Source: Clostridiales bacterium (lineage in GTDB: Bacteria; Bacillota; Clostridia; Lachnospirales; Lachnospiraceae). From it: a stretch of 37,417 bases of DNA. A program made the position numbers and the translations under genes. The stretch lies in the NCBI GenBank assembly GCA_020860565.1, contig JAJBUA010000094.1, positions 1 to 37,417 on the forward strand. The letters are read 5' to 3'. Positions 1 through 29,630 of the stretch are shown in pieces (within the stretch, counting starts at the first letter, position 1; each line of letters starts with the position of its first letter). The notes under the pieces were generated by a model, which did not search any database, was not told the origin of the DNA, and saw only the letters and a list, made by a program, of their open reading frames with translations.

Positions 1-51
1 GCGGGCCGGGTGCGGCATAAGCCGCAAAATTCCTTACCCGGCCCTGCGCAT
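1..51 (-). repeat. Hairpin repeat module P, copy A
   Basis: Outer arms GGGCCGGGT and ACCCGGCCC enclose an inner hairpin GCGGC-ATAA-GCCGC and a one-sided bulge AAAATTCCTT (plus-strand reading). TGCGCA follows and leads into the T-tract of the typA terminator. The same architecture recurs at 11920-12054 and 29575-29625, with different but still complementary arms. The window edge may cut off further modules on the left. I recognise no named repeat family. Confidence 0.75.
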
Positions 52-98
52 AAAAAAAACGACAGATCCCGCAGTTATCCATCTGCAACATCTGCCGT
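52..98 (-). terminator. Intrinsic terminator of typA
   Basis: On the minus strand the arms ACGGCAGAT (98-90) and ATCTGTCGT (67-59) pair, with one G-U. Eight T residues (59-52) follow directly. It sits about 28 bases past the typA stop codon. The hairpin repeat begins right after the T-tract. Confidence 0.8.
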
Positions 99-4293: not shown

Positions 4294-7026
4294 CTAATGT
4301 GCCGCAGTCGGCGCCGTTACCGATTTTGACGCCGCTGTCGGCTTTTCGACAGAATTCTCCTGCGTACTCCCCCGACTGTTTCCGCTCGACGACGAACTAC
4401 TGCTGCTTCCCGGCGATACATATCCGGGGCCGGTCGTGCTGACACCTGGCGCCGTTCTTTCTACCGTCTCGCCCTCTCCCGCGCTTGGACTCAGAATCAC
4501 ACTGGTATGACCGGAGCATGTCCGATACGGTATCGCGTAACTCGAATCATCGGTATTTCCCTCCGCATCCGATGGTATCGCAATGCAGATTGCCGTAGTC
4601 CGTTCACAATCCTGAGCCGGGATCAGACCGGTTTCCGCACAGACGGTAACACGCACATGCTTATCGCAAACCTCCTCCGGTACATTATCTGTCGCAAAAT
4701 ATTCCGTGTAAATGGCATTTCCCCGCGGATCCGCGCTGCAAATACCTGACACGCCGATCTTGCCGGACTTGCGGCAGATTTCCGCTGTCGTAACACTGTC
4801 CGGTACCGCAAATCCCGGATCGGAGAGTCCCTCATGCACACGGGTCATGATCTTTTTCCAGATATTCTTGTGAAACGAAGTGCCGCCGTTTTGCGATGTC
4901 AGCTTCTGGTTATTGTCGCAACCGCCCCATACACCTGCGGTATAATAGGGCGTAAAGCCTACAAACCAGATGTCATTATTATTGGAAGTCGTTCCACTTT
5001 TGCCCGCGCACGACATATCAGAAAGTTTTGCACCCGTACTGGTCGAACTGACATTATAGCCGCTGCTTGCCCATTTATGATTACTGATCATGGAATCTTT
5101 CATCGCGTCTGTCAGAAGAAATGCTGTCGACTCCTTCAATACACGATGCGTCTTTGGTTCATTGTCGATCAGGATTTTTCCGTCATGGTCATAGATCTTA
5201 GTAAAGAACAGCGGTTTTGTATAAACGCCGCCGTTTGCGATGGCCGCATAGGCACCGGTCAGTTCCAGATTGGTCACTCCGTCCGTGATGCCTCCCAGCG
5301 CCAACGCCGCATTCATATCCGTATCGGTCAGCGTTGTAATCCCAAAGTTACGGGCATACTCCACGCCAAGCTGCGGCGTCACCGTCTCCATCAGGCAGCG
5401 GACCGCGACAATGTTCATGGAGTAAATAATACCGTCCCGGATACTGGAATATCCAAAAAAGCCCTGACTGTACCAGTTGCTGAAGGTCTTGGTCCCCACC
5501 GTATAAGGCGCGTCATAATACACTGTACCCAGCGTCGCACCACAGGTATCCAGCGCCGGAGCGAAAGCCGTGACCACCTTAAACGTAGATCCCGGCTGCC
5601 GCGTAGCATTGGTTGCCCGGTTTAACGTCAGGCTGGCAGTCTTTTCCCCGCGCCCACCGCTGATCGCTTTTACCTCTCCGGTCTTCTGATCCATAATCAC
5701 AAAGGATGCCTGAGGCTGGAGCGTCATCGTTACCGTCTCACCGATGATCTCATCCCCTTCCTGCAGAAGCTGCGCCTTATAGGCGTCGATATCCGCCTGC
5801 GCTTCCTCCTGACTGTCATAAAGGCCGTCAAAACTGTCTTTCAGAATATTCTCATGCCAGCTGCTGATATTTTTTTCCGAATAATGCGTCGTCTCCCCCT
5901 GGGCATCTGTCACCGAGAGACGATATTCCACGGAATAACGCGCTGCTGAATAATTATCCGGATCACTGATTTCCTCATCGACAATTGCCTGAATCGTCGG
6001 ATCCTGAGTCGTATAAATCTTCAGGCCCCCGCTGTAAAGCAGATTATGCGCCTGTGTCTCCGTATATCCCAGTTCTTCCATCAGGGTTTCTTTCACCTGG
6101 CTGGTCAGTTCATCGGTAAAATAACTGTACGGAGTTGAGGTCTCTCTGGATACGGAATCTACATTCTGAATCCGTTCATAAACATCGTCCGCAAGTGCCT
6201 CTTCCTGTTCCTCCTTGGTAATATAACCCTGCTCATACATATACTGAAGAATGACTTTCCGTTTTTCCTCATTCTTCTCACGGCCGGTAATTGGATTGAG
6301 ATGCGCCGGATTCTGCGTGATCCCGGCAATCACCGCGCACTCAGACAACGTCAGTTCGGATAAATCTTTATTAAAATACCGCCGTGCCGCGACCTTGACC
6401 CCCAGCGTATTATTGCCGAGATTGATGGTGTTCAGATAATTGGTCAGGATCTGTTTGCGGTCCATCGATTTGGTCAGCTGCACCGCAAGATACTGATCCT
6501 GCAGTTTTCTCTCCAGCTTCGCCCCGAAGCTGGTCTCCATCCCTCCGTTAAACACATTATTTTTGATCAGCTGCTGCGTGATCGTACTGCCGCCGCCGCT
6601 GTAATCTCCGCTCAGCACACCAACTGCCGCACGGATGATTGAACGCAGGTCGATGCCGTTATGAGTCCAGAAACGAGAATCCTCAATCGCGACAAACGCA
6701 TTGATCAGATCTTCCGGCAGTTCATCGTAAGTAGCCTCTTCACGGTTGGAACCGGCCGTCACCAGCGTATCTGTCAGGTTTCCTTCACAGTCATACACCG
6801 TTGTGGCATAACCAGACGGAACAATACTTTCTACATTAATCTCAGGTGCATTGTCAATCACACCCTTTGCGGCGCCAATTCCTACCGCAGCAATCACGGC
6901 CAGAACAATCAGACAAAACACCATGCCGATCTTAAAAACCAGCAGGACGATGCCGGAAGCATATTTATTTCTGTCAGATCCAACGGATTTGATCTTACTT
7001 TCGACCGATGCCCTTCCATAATTCAT
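4294..7026 (-). CDS. Class A penicillin-binding protein (transglycosylase/transpeptidase)
   Basis: A bifunctional cell-wall enzyme that polymerises lipid II glycan strands and cross-links peptides outside the membrane. 910 residues. A cytoplasmic tail is followed by one membrane segment (about residues 25-55). The GT51 domain has EDSRFWTHNGID, GGSTITQQLIKN and the KLQDQYLAVQL...QILTNYLN block. The transpeptidase domain has STFK (about residue 475), YSMN as the SxN motif, and KSGTT. The C-terminal tail is rich in Ser, Thr and Pro with a run of seven Ser, typical of wall-spanning tails. AAAGGAG lies 8 bases before the ATG at 7026; a TTG seven codons upstream is less likely because it precedes that site. 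It is transcribed from the promoter at 7075-7103. Confidence 0.95.
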   Translation of the reverse strand: MNYGRASVESKIKSVGSDRNKYASGIVLLVFKIGMVFCLIVLAVIAAVGIGAAKGVIDNAPEINVESIVPSGYATTVYDCEGNLTDTLVTAGSNREEATYDELPEDLINAFVAIEDSRFWTHNGIDLRSIIRAAVGVLSGDYSGGGSTITQQLIKNNVFNGGMETSFGAKLERKLQDQYLAVQLTKSMDRKQILTNYLNTINLGNNTLGVKVAARRYFNKDLSELTLSECAVIAGITQNPAHLNPITGREKNEEKRKVILQYMYEQGYITKEEQEEALADDVYERIQNVDSVSRETSTPYSYFTDELTSQVKETLMEELGYTETQAHNLLYSGGLKIYTTQDPTIQAIVDEEISDPDNYSAARYSVEYRLSVTDAQGETTHYSEKNISSWHENILKDSFDGLYDSQEEAQADIDAYKAQLLQEGDEIIGETVTMTLQPQASFVIMDQKTGEVKAISGGRGEKTASLTLNRATNATRQPGSTFKVVTAFAPALDTCGATLGTVYYDAPYTVGTKTFSNWYSQGFFGYSSIRDGIIYSMNIVAVRCLMETVTPQLGVEYARNFGITTLTDTDMNAALALGGITDGVTNLELTGAYAAIANGGVYTKPLFFTKIYDHDGKILIDNEPKTHRVLKESTAFLLTDAMKDSMISNHKWASSGYNVSSTSTGAKLSDMSCAGKSGTTSNNNDIWFVGFTPYYTAGVWGGCDNNQKLTSQNGGTSFHKNIWKKIMTRVHEGLSDPGFAVPDSVTTAEICRKSGKIGVSGICSADPRGNAIYTEYFATDNVPEEVCDKHVRVTVCAETGLIPAQDCERTTAICIAIPSDAEGNTDDSSYAIPYRTCSGHTSVILSPSAGEGETVERTAPGVSTTGPGYVSPGSSSSSSSSGNSRGSTQENSVEKPTAASKSVTAPTAAH

Positions 7027-11919: not shown

Positions 11920-12054
11920 GAGCCGGGTGCGGCGCAAGCCGCAAAATTCCTTACCCGGCTCTGTGATCGAGTAGGAGGCGGCTTTTTGCCTCATACTCGC
12001 TGCGCCGGGCGGATGCAGCGTCAGCTGCAAAATTTCCTTATCCGCCCGTGTGCA
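11920..12054 (-). repeat. Hairpin repeat array, copy B (modules P1, S, P2)
   Basis: Three hairpins in tandem. P1 (11920-11961): arms GAGCCGGGT and ACCCGGCTC, inner GCGGC-GCAA-GCCGC, bulge AAAATTCCTT. S (11968-11999): arms CGAGTA and TACTCG with inner GAGGC and GCCTC. P2 (12006-12048): arms CGGGCGGAT and ATCCGCCCG, inner GCAGC-GTCA-GCTGC, bulge AAAATTTCCTT. P1 and P2 differ in both arms yet stay fully paired. The array ends in TGTGCA next to the T-tract of the terminator at 12056-12088. It fills most of the gap before the ATP-grasp gene. Confidence 0.85.
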
Positions 12055-12055
12055 T

Positions 12056-12088
12056 AAAAATGGGCGCTCGAATAATCTTCAAGCGCCC
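12056..12088 (-). terminator. Intrinsic terminator or attenuator ahead of the ATP-grasp operon
   Basis: On the minus strand GGGCGCT and AGCGCCC pair, extended by TGAA with TTCG, closing on GATTA. ATTTTTA follows. It is about 150 bases past the stop of the PLP-dependent gene at 12241 and could end that operon. However, a good promoter at 12104-12132 fires just upstream of it, so it would also form near the 5' end of the ATP-grasp transcript. Confidence 0.75.
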
Positions 12089-12240: not shown

Positions 12241-13527
12241 TTATGACGGCAGTGACGCCAGCCCTTCGGACACCAGATTTTCGAGGGATTTTAAAATTCC
12301 CAGTTTTGCATGATACCAGGTAAGCCCTCCCTGAAAATAGGCGGCATAAGGGGGCTTCAGCGGCCCGTCCGCACTCAGCTCAATCGAGGATCCCTGCACA
12401 AAGGCTCCGGCGGCCATAATAACCGGAGCGTCATACCCCGGCATATCCCAGGGTTCCGGCGTCACAAAACTGTCCACCGGAGCTGCGGCCTGAATCCCCT
12501 TACAGAACGCAATCAGCCCCTCCGGCTTGCCAAAGGCGACCATCTGGATGATATCGTGGCGGGACTCCGAGCCGTTCGGAACCACATCAAAGCCTAACCG
12601 CTCATAAACATTCGCCGCAAAGATCGCACCCTTTAACGCTCCGGCCACGACGACCGGCGACAGGAAAAATCCCTGAAGGAAGGACTGGTTCAGTCCCAGA
12701 CTGGCTCCGACCTCCTTGCCCAGTCCGGGCGCGCTCAGCCGAAATGATGCCCGCTCAATACAGTCTGTCCGCCCCGCGATATAGCCGCCAATCGGAGCAA
12801 GCCCGCCGCCCGGATTTTTAATGAGTGACCCCACAATCATATCAGCACCGACATCAAGCGGCTCTGTCCGCTCAACAAATTCCCCGTAACAATTATCAAC
12901 CATACAGATGAGATCCGGCCGGATGTTCTTGACAAACGCAATCAGTTCACCGATCCGCTTTACGGACAGAGTCGGCCGTGAATCATAGCCCTTCGAGCGT
13001 TGGATCGTAACGAGCCGTGTCTTGTCAGTAATTGCCGCACGGATCCCGTCATAATCAAAGGAACCGTCTTCTTTCAGATCCACCTGACGATAGGAAACCC
13101 CATATTCCCGCAGAGAACCGCAGGACGGACGAATGCCGATCACTTCCTCCAGCGTATCATACGGTTTCCCCACCGGAGACAGGAGTTCATCGCCTGGCCG
13201 CAGATTACCCGAAAGAGCAATATGGAGCGCATGGGTACCGCTGATCAGCTGCGGCCGCACCAGCGCACTCTCCGCATGAAACGCACGGGCATATACCTCT
13301 TCCACTGTATCGCGGCCAAGATCATTATAACCATAACCGGTCGTCGCAGCGAAATGGACATCGCTGACTCTGGCCTCCTGCATGGCCTTTAATACCTTCA
13401 GCTGGTTATACTCAGCCGTCCGGTCGATCTCCTCAAAGCGGGATTTCAGGTCCTTCTCAATGCTGCTGCCATAATCATACACGTTACGGCTGATTCCTAA
13501 TTTCTCATAAATATCATAATCTTCCAT
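12241..13527 (-). CDS. PLP-dependent methionine gamma-lyase/aluminium-resistance family protein
   Basis: 428 residues, COG4100 type, related to cystathionine beta-lyases. The PLP lysine is in SLIKNPGGG (about residue 236). Also conserved are ATTGYGYNDLGRDT, the ARAFHAESALVRPQLISGTHA segment and MVDNCYGEF. Its true substrate is unsettled; the 'aluminium resistance' name comes from an early gene report. In Clostridia and Bacilli it often follows miaA (family context). The ATG at 13527 lies 14 bases inside miaA. Longer frames upstream run through miaA coding sequence and are not family-like, so I chose the internal ATG that starts MEDYDIYEKLGIS. Confidence 0.9.
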   Translation of the reverse strand: MEDYDIYEKLGISRNVYDYGSSIEKDLKSRFEEIDRTAEYNQLKVLKAMQEARVSDVHFAATTGYGYNDLGRDTVEEVYARAFHAESALVRPQLISGTHALHIALSGNLRPGDELLSPVGKPYDTLEEVIGIRPSCGSLREYGVSYRQVDLKEDGSFDYDGIRAAITDKTRLVTIQRSKGYDSRPTLSVKRIGELIAFVKNIRPDLICMVDNCYGEFVERTEPLDVGADMIVGSLIKNPGGGLAPIGGYIAGRTDCIERASFRLSAPGLGKEVGASLGLNQSFLQGFFLSPVVVAGALKGAIFAANVYERLGFDVVPNGSESRHDIIQMVAFGKPEGLIAFCKGIQAAAPVDSFVTPEPWDMPGYDAPVIMAAGAFVQGSSIELSADGPLKPPYAAYFQGGLTWYHAKLGILKSLENLVSEGLASLPS

Positions 13528-14470
13528 TTGATTCCATTCCCTTTCGAAATTCCTCGCAGATATGCCGCACAATCTTTTCACGGTCATACCCGAAATCTTC
13601 CAGATACAGCCAGCGGACATCCCGTTCTCTCTTAAACCAGGTGATCTGACGTTTGGCGAAATGTCTGGTATCCCGTTTCAGGATCGACACTGCCTCCCCC
13701 AGAGAACAGATTCCGTCGAGATAATCCAGGATTTCCTTATATCCCAGTCCCTGCATGGATACCATGCCGCGCCGACATCCTATTTCTTTTAAACGGCGCA
13801 CTTCTTCAACCAGTCCGGCGTCAAGCATCTGATCCACCCGCTGTTCGATCCTCTGATAAAGCCGCGCACGGTCGCAGGTAAGCACATAATAATAAAACTG
13901 ATAGGGGGATTCTTTCTCCCGCTCCGTCTGATTATGTTCGGAAATCTTCTGCCCGGTGAGGCGGTAGTATTCAATCGCACGGATCACCCGTTTGCGGTTA
14001 TTCGCATGAATTGCCTGCGCGGATTCCGGATCAATCTGGCGGAGCAGACCGTGAAGATATTCATTCCCCCGTTCTTCGCCCAGAGCCTCCAGTTCTCTGC
14101 GAATCTCAAAATGATTGCCGTCTTCCTCAAAATTAACATCATAAAGCAGTGCCTGGATATAGAAACCGGTTCCGCCCGCAATAACAGGAATATGTCCTCT
14201 TTCATAAATCCCGGCCAGCGCTTCCTTTGCCATTGTCTGGAAGCGGGCAACATTAAAATTCTCTCTCGGATCAAGCACATCGATCAGATGATGTGGGACA
14301 CCGTCCATTTCTTCTTTTGTTACCTTCGCTGAACCGATATCCATATACCGATATACCTGCATCGAATCCGCGCTGATGATCTCGCCCCCCAGTTCCTGGG
14401 CAACTCGAATAGAGACCGCCGTTTTTCCTACCGCAGTTGGTCCGGTCAATAGTATCAGACTTTTTTTCAT
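13514..14470 (-). CDS. miaA: tRNA dimethylallyltransferase
   Basis: Adds a dimethylallyl group to N6 of A37 in tRNAs reading UNN codons, the step before MiaB methylthiolation. 318 residues. P-loop GPTAVGKT at residues 10-17, substrate motif ISADSMQVYRYMDIGSAK, PHHLID, the GTGFYIQALLYD segment, and RQITWFKRERDVRW near the C-terminus. It lies 21 bases after mutL and overlaps the next gene by 14 bases. Having miaA and miaB in one operon with mutSL is coherent: the two enzymes make ms2i6A in sequence. Confidence 0.96.
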   Translation of the reverse strand: MKKSLILLTGPTAVGKTAVSIRVAQELGGEIISADSMQVYRYMDIGSAKVTKEEMDGVPHHLIDVLDPRENFNVARFQTMAKEALAGIYERGHIPVIAGGTGFYIQALLYDVNFEEDGNHFEIRRELEALGEERGNEYLHGLLRQIDPESAQAIHANNRKRVIRAIEYYRLTGQKISEHNQTEREKESPYQFYYYVLTCDRARLYQRIEQRVDQMLDAGLVEEVRRLKEIGCRRGMVSMQGLGYKEILDYLDGICSLGEAVSILKRDTRHFAKRQITWFKRERDVRWLYLEDFGYDREKIVRHICEEFRKGMESNGRL

Positions 14471-26152: not shown

Positions 26153-26593
26153 TTAAGCTGACTGCAGCAGCCTGACATCCCGTTCGAGCTGATCTACTTT
26201 ATTGATCACATAGCGTATCTGGATATCATGCAGGTCCTGTTTATCCACCAACGGAATCGCCGCATTCACTTTCTCTATCACATTCATATGATTTTCGGCC
26301 AGTATATGAATATCCCTCTTTACTTCATTCTCGATCATCAGTTCCAGATCGGTCACTTTTTGCTGGAGGTTATTCATATCCTGTTTCAAATCGGTTATCT
26401 CTTGTTTTATTTCAACGATTTCTTCTGTAATTTCCTGTTTGAATTCAATCATCTCTTGCTTGAATCCGATCATATCTTGTTTGAATTCGGTCATTTCTTG
26501 TTTGAACTCAGTCATGTCACTTTCAACATGAATCAGACGATCATTCATAGACAGCATGAGATGATACATCTCGGTAAACAATTCGTCATTCAT
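26153..26593 (-). CDS. Small coiled-coil protein with heptad repeats, function unknown
   Basis: 146 residues, no signal peptide or membrane segment. The centre (residues 27-72) is a run of seven-residue units of the type MTEFKQE, MTEFKQD, MIGFKQE, MIEFKQE, ITEEIVE, IKQEITD, LKQDMNN, predicting a long coiled coil. A second helical stretch (about 95-146) ends VINKVDQLERDVRLLQ. It is not a family I can name. AAAGGAG lies 10 bases before the ATG. It stands alone between the tRNA cluster and the BofC-like gene, with its own extended -10 promoter and terminator. Confidence 0.8.
   Translation of the reverse strand: MNDELFTEMYHLMLSMNDRLIHVESDMTEFKQEMTEFKQDMIGFKQEMIEFKQEITEEIVEIKQEITDLKQDMNNLQQKVTDLELMIENEVKRDIHILAENHMNVIEKVNAAIPLVDKQDLHDIQIRYVINKVDQLERDVRLLQSA
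26378..26515 (-). repeat. 21-base tandem repeat inside the coiled-coil gene
   Basis: About six to seven 21-base units encode the heptads of residues 27-72. The first four share the core TTCAAACAAGA-like stretch almost unchanged and the later ones diverge. Length change by slippage would keep the frame and the heptad phase. Confidence 0.7.
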
Positions 26594-29399: not shown

Positions 29400-29490
29400 T
29401 TTGGAAATATCCTTTTATTTTGTTATCTGTAATGTAATATTATGAGAAGCCATTTCATTTTGTTCCTGATTCCATATCCAGCTGTGCGAT

Positions 29491-29625
29491 CGAGCAGGAG
29501 GCGGTTTTGCCTCATACTCGCTGCGCGGCGCTGGATGTCCGGTGGACATCCGTTTAGCGCCGACCAAAGCGGAGCGCAGATCCGGGTGCAGCGTCAGCTG
29601 CAAAATACCCTGCCCGGCTCTGCGC
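29491..29625 (-). repeat. Hairpin repeat array, copy C (modules S, Q, P)
   Basis: S (29491-29520) matches copy B's S with CGAGCA for CGAGTA. Q (29526-29562) is a hairpin not seen elsewhere: arms CGGCGCT and AGCGCCG with an inner GGATGTCC-GGT-GGACATCC and a GTTT bulge. P (29574-29625) has arms GCGCAGA-CCGGG and CCCGG-TCTGCGC, inner GCAGC-GTCA-GCTGC and bulge AAAATACCCT. It lies between the spoIIQ-like terminator and cotJA. The open frame across it (29415-29663) is not a gene. The 29400-29490 stretch must hold the cotJ promoter, not identified. Confidence 0.8.
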
Positions 29626-29630
29626 ATGAC

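Follow-up and report, generated by a model that had tools for sequence, protein, structure and literature searches.

A mobile two-hairpin repeat found beside transcription terminators in Lachnospiraceae

The window analyzed here is a stretch of 37,417 nucleotides (contig JAJBUA010000094.1, assembly GCA_020860565.1) from a Clostridiales bacterium of the family Lachnospiraceae, whose draft assembly (G000 below) spans 2.8 Mb and is 95% complete. The original prediction described a dispersed hairpin, module P, at positions 1-51, 11920-11961, 12006-12048 and 29574-29625, and all four copies were found where it placed them. P is built of an outer stem, an inner stem and a 3' bulge AAAATTTCCTT. However, the element is wider than had been claimed. 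P forms the right half of a larger unit that runs hairpin Q, CYGCGC, P and then TGYGCAT, and the prediction missed both hairpin Q on the 5' side and a terminator-like repeat on the 3' side. Its observation is partly confirmed and its interpretation partly supported; the bipartite, mobile and terminator-tied character of the element had escaped it. In the family, Q takes the form ATCGAG...CTCG, with arms ATCGAGTAGGAGGC...GCCTCATACTCG. The copies in the window have the following features.

1-52, plus strand: module P with right end TGCGCAT; matched at 1-52 by covariance model R1 with 55 bits
11920-11961, plus strand: upstream P of a P-Q-P array; outer arms GAGCCGGGT/ACCCGGCTC, inner stem GCGGC/GCCGC, bulge AAAATTCCTT
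11966-11999, plus strand: hairpin Q, CGAGTA-G-GAGGC...GCCTC-A-TACTCG, with left end ATCGAG
12006-12048, plus strand: module P proper; outer arms CGGGCGGAT/ATCCGCCCG, inner stem GCAGC/GCTGC, loop GTCA, bulge AAAATTTCCTT
12049-12055, plus strand: fixed right end TGTGCAT (TGYGCAT in the family)
12056-12088, minus strand: A-tract and inverted repeat, abutted by the right end
29489-29520, plus strand: hairpin Q belonging to the second full copy of the unit
29527-29578, plus strand: module R, an extra bulged hairpin GGCGCTGGATGTCC..GGACATCCGTTTAGCGCC and a linker, in the 5' outer arm of P
29579-29627, plus strand: P within the Q-R-P copy, with 7/9 outer-arm pairs intact and right end TGCGCAT

The stretch at 11920-12055 is a direct tandem, P-Q-P, that holds one complete unit, and the unit at 11966-12056 folds as DNA with -30.5 kcal/mol (z -6.8). 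Its right end abuts what is likely the intrinsic terminator of the minus-strand gene 12241-13620, with the T-tract on the minus strand (12056-12088). A terminator-like repeat also lies directly 3' of the Q-R-P copy. The copy at 1-51 lacks its upstream part because the end of the contig cuts through it. It is located past the 3' end of the minus-strand gene 126-1967, which presumably encodes a TypA/BipA-like GTPase. Elsewhere in the window, the minus-strand reading frame 26153-26593 contains 21-bp direct repeats at 26376-26534 that encode heptad-like EFKQEMT repeats, perhaps a coiled coil.

How well do the four copies keep their structure? The inner stems change jointly between GCGGC/GCCGC and GCAGC/GCTGC, just as had been noted. 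The claim that the outer arms always keep a full complement holds for the copies at 1-51, 11920-11961 and 12006-12048. In the fourth copy, the arms GATCCGGGT (29579-29587) and GCCCGGCTC (29612-29620) have two of nine Watson-Crick pairs broken, so full complementarity is not kept in every copy. Similarly, the bulge, said to be nearly constant, retains a TTCC core (plus strand) in most of the other genomes viewed, but reads AAAATACCCT in the fourth copy (29579-29620). Module R, with a linker like GACCGAAGCGGAGCGTAGACC, occurs at 11 places in G000, always in the 5' outer arm of P (window 29527-29578; L010, L022, L024, L032, two in L036, L037, L038, L040 and L042). One to four of P's nine outer pairs are broken at these places, and at L037 the module is reduced to its end.

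The repeat is abundant in its own genome and patchy elsewhere. A blastn search with a 151-base query found 52 places in the draft genome. We built R1 on 29 copies chosen by flanking sequence rather than by P pairing, having dropped seven of 36 flank-pattern matches (five that were not P, one truncated P tail and one with the wrong right border). R1 matched the draft genome 77 times (E ≤ 0.01) and, at E ≤ 0.001, matched 16 of 61 genomes including this one, with 10 of 24 congeners and 6 of 37 genomes from outside the genus. Only three of the 24 genomes of the genus (G000, G012 and G019) had at least 67 matches; in this survey the counts for these three are lower bounds, and weak matches were inspected in part. 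By eye, the weak matches in G027 and G034 appear genuine. Given the fold energy, the genome-wide blastn hits and the covariance-model matches, the repeat is not a product of chance.

A pattern scan of named genomes returned 106 stretches. Among the 80 listed, 16 were scored with R1 and 15 were viewed; many of the others come from Proteobacteria or Actinobacteria, in which matches by chance are to be expected. Thirteen of the 16 gave an R1 match, and the titles of their records name Lachnospiraceae, Eubacterium, Eubacteriaceae or Clostridium; the longest array, in L222, has four tandem units. R1 did not match the remaining three, one from Lachnospiraceae (L253) and two from Bacteroidales (L220 and L282). 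The 91-base unit had no match in the plasmid or phage collections, and four pattern matches in viral contigs scored at best 17.4 bits with R1 (E 0.047).

The stems covary strongly, which agrees with the constraint on pairing that the original prediction had proposed. Among the 29 copies from one genome (A1), 95.3% of cells pair and both sides have changed in 14 of 30 pairs. These changes amount to 81 double-change cells, compared with 27.7 in shuffled alignments (0/500 reach 81) and a maximum of 6 when the partner was slid. A second alignment of 38 matches, 37 of them distinct, from G000, G019 and other genomes (A3) has changes on both sides in 22 of 30 pairs and 186 double-change cells (58.3 shuffled, at most 32 slid), although A3 was fitted to the model and leans toward it. 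With the same leaning, 93.5% of its cells are paired, and the free loss of pairing in copies elsewhere that would have counted against the prediction was not seen. The outermost pair is mostly unpaired in A1 and A3 alike. In G000 and G019 together, the outer arms of P occur in 13 distinct fully complementary versions, are fully paired in 41 of 95 copies and have at most one mismatch in 66 of 95; because P was parsed so as to maximize pairing, these counts lean toward structure.

Is the selected molecule RNA or DNA? A functional one-strand RNA should tolerate G-U but not A-C. Setting aside heavily mismatched pairs (those with more than six G-T or A-C cells), we counted similar numbers of G-T and A-C cells, 50/46 in A2, 29/21 in A3 and 18/11 in A1; unfiltered, the counts were 126/121, 43/45 and 32/24, respectively. 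DNA hairpins therefore fit better than a one-strand RNA, and the symmetry of the mismatches fits DNA hairpins whose copies decay neutrally once inserted. The prediction had left the choice between RNA and a DNA hairpin open, and the DNA half of it fares better. Its statement that no named RNA family applies holds for Rfam 15. In the window and 15 further loci, only tRNA, T-box and molybdenum riboswitch models scored above threshold, and none of these fell on the element. Rfam families were rejected as an identity, since the scores on the element stay below threshold; the best raw scores include naRNA4 at 18.8 (threshold 59.5) and a group II intron at 15.6 (threshold 40). A covarying structure is what one would expect of a functional cis-acting RNA, such as a 3'-UTR or intercistronic element or a read-through control, maintained in many genes by selection. 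However, the near equality of G-T and A-C cells, the patchy distribution and the lack of an Rfam match at threshold all count against this explanation. On mismatch symmetry, we rejected a one-strand cis-acting RNA as the main explanation.

The position of the repeat is as distinctive as its structure. We took 95 of 106 R1 matches forward for the analysis of ends. For right ends, 10 of the 95 were dropped since another unit follows, and one inner unit (L027) is still included among the remaining 85. In G000 and G019, a terminator hairpin begins 0-13 nt past the right end (TGYGCATA) in 63 of 85 copies, and the same criterion is satisfied at 5 of 85 left ends. The asymmetry recurs in other genomes, where a hairpin lies 0-13 nt beyond 18 of 24 right ends versus 2 of 24 left ends (29 A3 matches outside G000 and G019, less five inner tandem units). 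A hairpin scoring at least 18 occurs within 70 nt of 64/85 right ends, and is accompanied by an A-tract at 47/85. The corresponding counts are 19/85 and 6/85 for left ends, 37/425 and 7/425 for base-shuffled right flanks, and 77/400 and 15/400 for random places. Read on the minus strand, the order is terminator hairpin, T-tract, element. No scored hairpin lies within 13 nt of the other 22 right ends, seven of which face a ribosome-binding site and start codon by eye. The strands of the neighboring genes, approximate because the ORF call was naive, were -- in 51, +- in 17, ++ in 13 and -+ in 10 of 91 cases. A location mostly beside terminators and less often beside ribosome-binding sites would also suit a cis-acting RNA.

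The two ends of the repeat behave differently. The right end TGYGCAT is nearly invariant. For left ends, 10 of the 95 copies were dropped because a unit lies upstream or a contig end is near. In 37 of the remaining 85, the leftmost unit starts sharply at ATCGAG with no matching P tail, a class that includes at least one P remnant with a different junction (L158 13980). Another 11 have two to three matching P-tail bases, with a similar case at L028, and 37 carry 5-60 nt of a truncated upstream P. A match of 5 nt or more to the P tail was reached by 5 of 300 random controls. Thus, the right end is fixed, and on the left a copy starts either at the boundary of its own unit or somewhere within the preceding tandem unit.

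Does the repeat move? We compared 16 sites base by base between G000 and its sister species G019, whose aligned flanks are about 84-95% identical; some sites were picked for a length gap, so the sample is not random. Eight of the 16 are occupied in one species and empty in the other (L158 5426, L158 13981, L169 2560, L171 11073, L171 6485, L171 2517, L173 5705 and L145 10017). Another four carry the repeat in both species, with different modules or numbers of units, namely the window site, where G019 has a partial P and then other hairpins, L024 12599, L024 2964-3144 (two units versus one) and L159 597. L170, L173 11919 and L145 2617 gave no clear assignment, and L159 17077 had no placement. 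The repeat has inserted recently at orthologous sites. These presence/absence or module differences at 12 of 16 orthologous sites weigh further against a cis-acting RNA, although five more G000 sites (L010, L011, L031, L034 and L150) are occupied in both species and align straight through, as such an RNA would predict. On balance, we consider this explanation improbable.

No target duplication was seen at the five sites where both junctions are readable (L158 13981, L169 and three in L171), where a duplication of A's only, within the tract, would be invisible. The numbers of target bases missing at these sites are 0, 9, 0, 18 and 5. At L171 6485, the left junction and the target have TCCTTA in common, and L173 5705 is ambiguous because its target carries ATCGAGGAGG. 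At L158 5426, a second, unrelated repeat came along with the element. This repeat, GTGAACCAGCCGTTCCTGAGAGG... ACATCCGGTTCGTTAAGTGCCGACGTGAA, is found at two places (L158 ~5195-5330 and L010 ~6130), and L158 is the one sister-species site where it was co-inserted. The repeat under study is small, dispersed, palindromic and non-coding, like an ordinary MITE moved by a DDE transposase. However, its ends, ATCGAG and TGYGCAT, are not mutual inverted repeats, it leaves no target duplication at the five readable sites and its left end varies. We rejected a DDE-type MITE because inverted ends and visible duplication are both lacking, and we give this explanation almost no weight.

To our knowledge, the spread of small palindromic repeats in bacteria is largely unsolved, and REP elements with their RAYT transposases are the main worked model. 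According to passages of one source (PMC3733652), REP/BIME elements are short intergenic hairpins with subfamilies that carry alternative complementary stem bases, and RAYTs act on single-stranded REP DNA. The repeat described here resembles them in being short, intergenic and hairpin-forming, with subfamilies of compensated stems, but differs in its large one-sided bulge and in forming direct rather than inverted dimers. Inverted dimers are not predominant, and the tandem arrays seen repeat directly as Q-P-Q-P. The GTAG/CGTC tag at the hairpin end is absent. P is flanked by GCGC and TGYG in nearly all copies, and GTAG is present only within the Q stem.

A related explanation is a REP-like single-stranded DNA element moved by an HUH transposase, either Y1 or an IS91/Helitron-type Y2, that recognizes the P and Q hairpins. 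A fixed right end, a variable left end and tandem units would then result from one-ended rolling-circle events. The hairpins with their conserved bulge, the direct tandems, the combination of fixed and variable ends and the lack of visible duplication all agree with this explanation. The Y1 enzyme does not. A profile search of G000 found no REP transposase, and the only sign of a RAYT (Y1_Tnp, PF01797) gene is a fragment in a 60-aa frame (31 bits); as the draft is 95% complete, a gene may have been missed, and its absence proves little. The PF01797 copies in G019 are broken by stops. Among 24 other genomes searched, PF01797 matched 12 of 14 carriers and 7 of 10 non-carriers, so Y1 does not track the repeat. 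R1 (E ≤ 1) matched near 3 of 25 Y1 loci (L087, L066 and L067), and the latter two matches do not abut or are weak. At L087, a copy of an IS200-like element directly adjoins an R1 match of 38.5 bits, which favors the HUH explanation. We nonetheless think this explanation doubtful, though it is the most probable of the rivals considered here.

The IS200-like element of G019 has two copies (L087 1149-1228 and L078 ~1190-1230), each starting right beside a palindrome, which is an R1-like unit at L087 and a simple hairpin at L078. We rejected a link between the repeat and IS200 ends at L087 as mere abutment, since the counterpart at L078 has no R1 match. The end hairpins of IS200/IS605 elements were also rejected as an identity because, by eye, the IS200 stretches carry neither Q nor P at their ends.

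Other repeats offer partial parallels. As described in passages of PMC3049150, the BOX elements of Streptococcus pneumoniae are small, modular, non-coding folded repeats with variable internal modules, clustered, non-autonomous and spread in a burst, and the SPRITE elements of the same species are terminator-like and enriched near the 3' ends of genes. Compared by description only, our repeat is modular, folded and non-autonomous like BOX, but BOX has terminal inverted repeats and our repeat has none. Moreover, SPRITE is itself terminator-like, whereas our repeat abuts the separate terminator of a neighboring gene. The double-hairpin elements of mitochondrial DNA are likewise mobile hairpin repeats, but belong to organelle genomes, and we know of no terminator targeting by them.

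Group IIC introns reportedly insert after intrinsic terminators, an observation credited to Robart in 2007. Passages of PMC7161350 likewise place their target just 3' of a terminator hairpin and T-tract. We found the same preference here (63/85 and 18/24), which is behavior in common and not membership. In contrast to these introns, the repeat is about 90 bp long and has a variable far end, and the Rfam model found no group II ribozyme domains in it (15.6 bits versus a threshold of 40). Of the features that define REP elements, MITEs and group II introns and that we tested, the repeat has only the terminator target. We place it among small mobile palindromic repeats. New in this work are its adjacency to terminators, the occupied and empty sites without duplication, the fixed right and variable left ends and the symmetry of mismatches. 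The literature searched yielded no description of this Q-P repeat, and the passages covered, including those of PMC12306157, PMC3049150, PMC3733652 and PMC7161350, describe no mobility of the kind proposed below for a small bacterial repeat.

How might the repeat spread? We infer that one-ended, target-primed copying at the T-tract of terminators is likely. The 3' end of the T-tract on the minus strand would prime copying of a single-stranded DNA or RNA template of the element, probably multimeric or circular. Copying would begin at TGYGCAT and either stop on reaching the left end of that unit (ATCGAG) or run on for a variable distance into the next unit. The copy would then be rejoined to the target through a few bases of microhomology, with small deletions of the target. 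In this proposal, the copying enzyme would recognize the hairpins and the conserved bulge, and the stems covary for that reason. As a whole, the reading that we favor is a non-autonomous mobile DNA repeat of ~87-91 bp, made of a Q hairpin and a bulged P hairpin, single or in direct tandem, that moves by T-tract-primed copying. We hold it tentatively, with slightly less than even confidence. The four sites with module differences in both species also fit recombination between elements, and an enzyme recognizing both ends could likewise account for the sharp left end of many copies.

Could copying occur with no dedicated enzyme? Replication might stall at a terminator hairpin and switch template, the 3' end of the T-tract annealing to the A-tract beside an existing copy, copying it and jumping back through microhomology. 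The A-rich tract that adjoins most copies, the microhomology, small deletions and tandem units, and the different modules found between near-identical flanks are all consistent with template switching. However, the sharp ATCGAG left end (37/85) and strong covariation with a conserved bulge suggest specific recognition, and a high copy number in only 3 of 24 congeners suggests a factor that comes and goes. We consider template switching distinctly unlikely.

For T-tract-primed copying, a reverse transcriptase may be considered. G000 encodes one RVT_1 protein, which shares 23% identity with the G019 protein over 143 aa, so the reverse transcriptases of the two species are only distantly alike. 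RVT_1 occurs in 5/5 carriers and 6/10 non-carriers tested. The repeat may even be a bacterial SINE-like element, that is, a short, gene-less structured nucleic acid that a polymerase inserts by target priming at terminator T-tracts, with its 3' end fixed and its 5' end truncated to varying extents, which we regard as possible but unlikely. Because the T-tract target, the fixed-right and ragged-left polarity and a sister species with empty sites can all be read here, both the mechanism and the enzyme are testable. Priming at terminators, if it occurs, would make the ends of genes in these bacteria landing sites that tolerate insertion.

A second family of repeats occupies similar terminator sites (L111 955-1115; L145 just below 2617 on the minus strand; L013 ~4753). 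Its hairpins are GAATTTCGCAAAGCGAAATTC or GAATCCTGCAAAGCAGGATTC and a P-like CTGCGGCGG..CCGCCGCAG with a TTCC bulge, and it also has a TTTTT-flanked palindrome around AGGACG-ACTTTCCT. Finally, the terminator-adjacent intergenic flank at L024 12450-12600 is almost unchanged between the two species while neighboring stretches differ by about 10%, and is possibly an unannotated small RNA.
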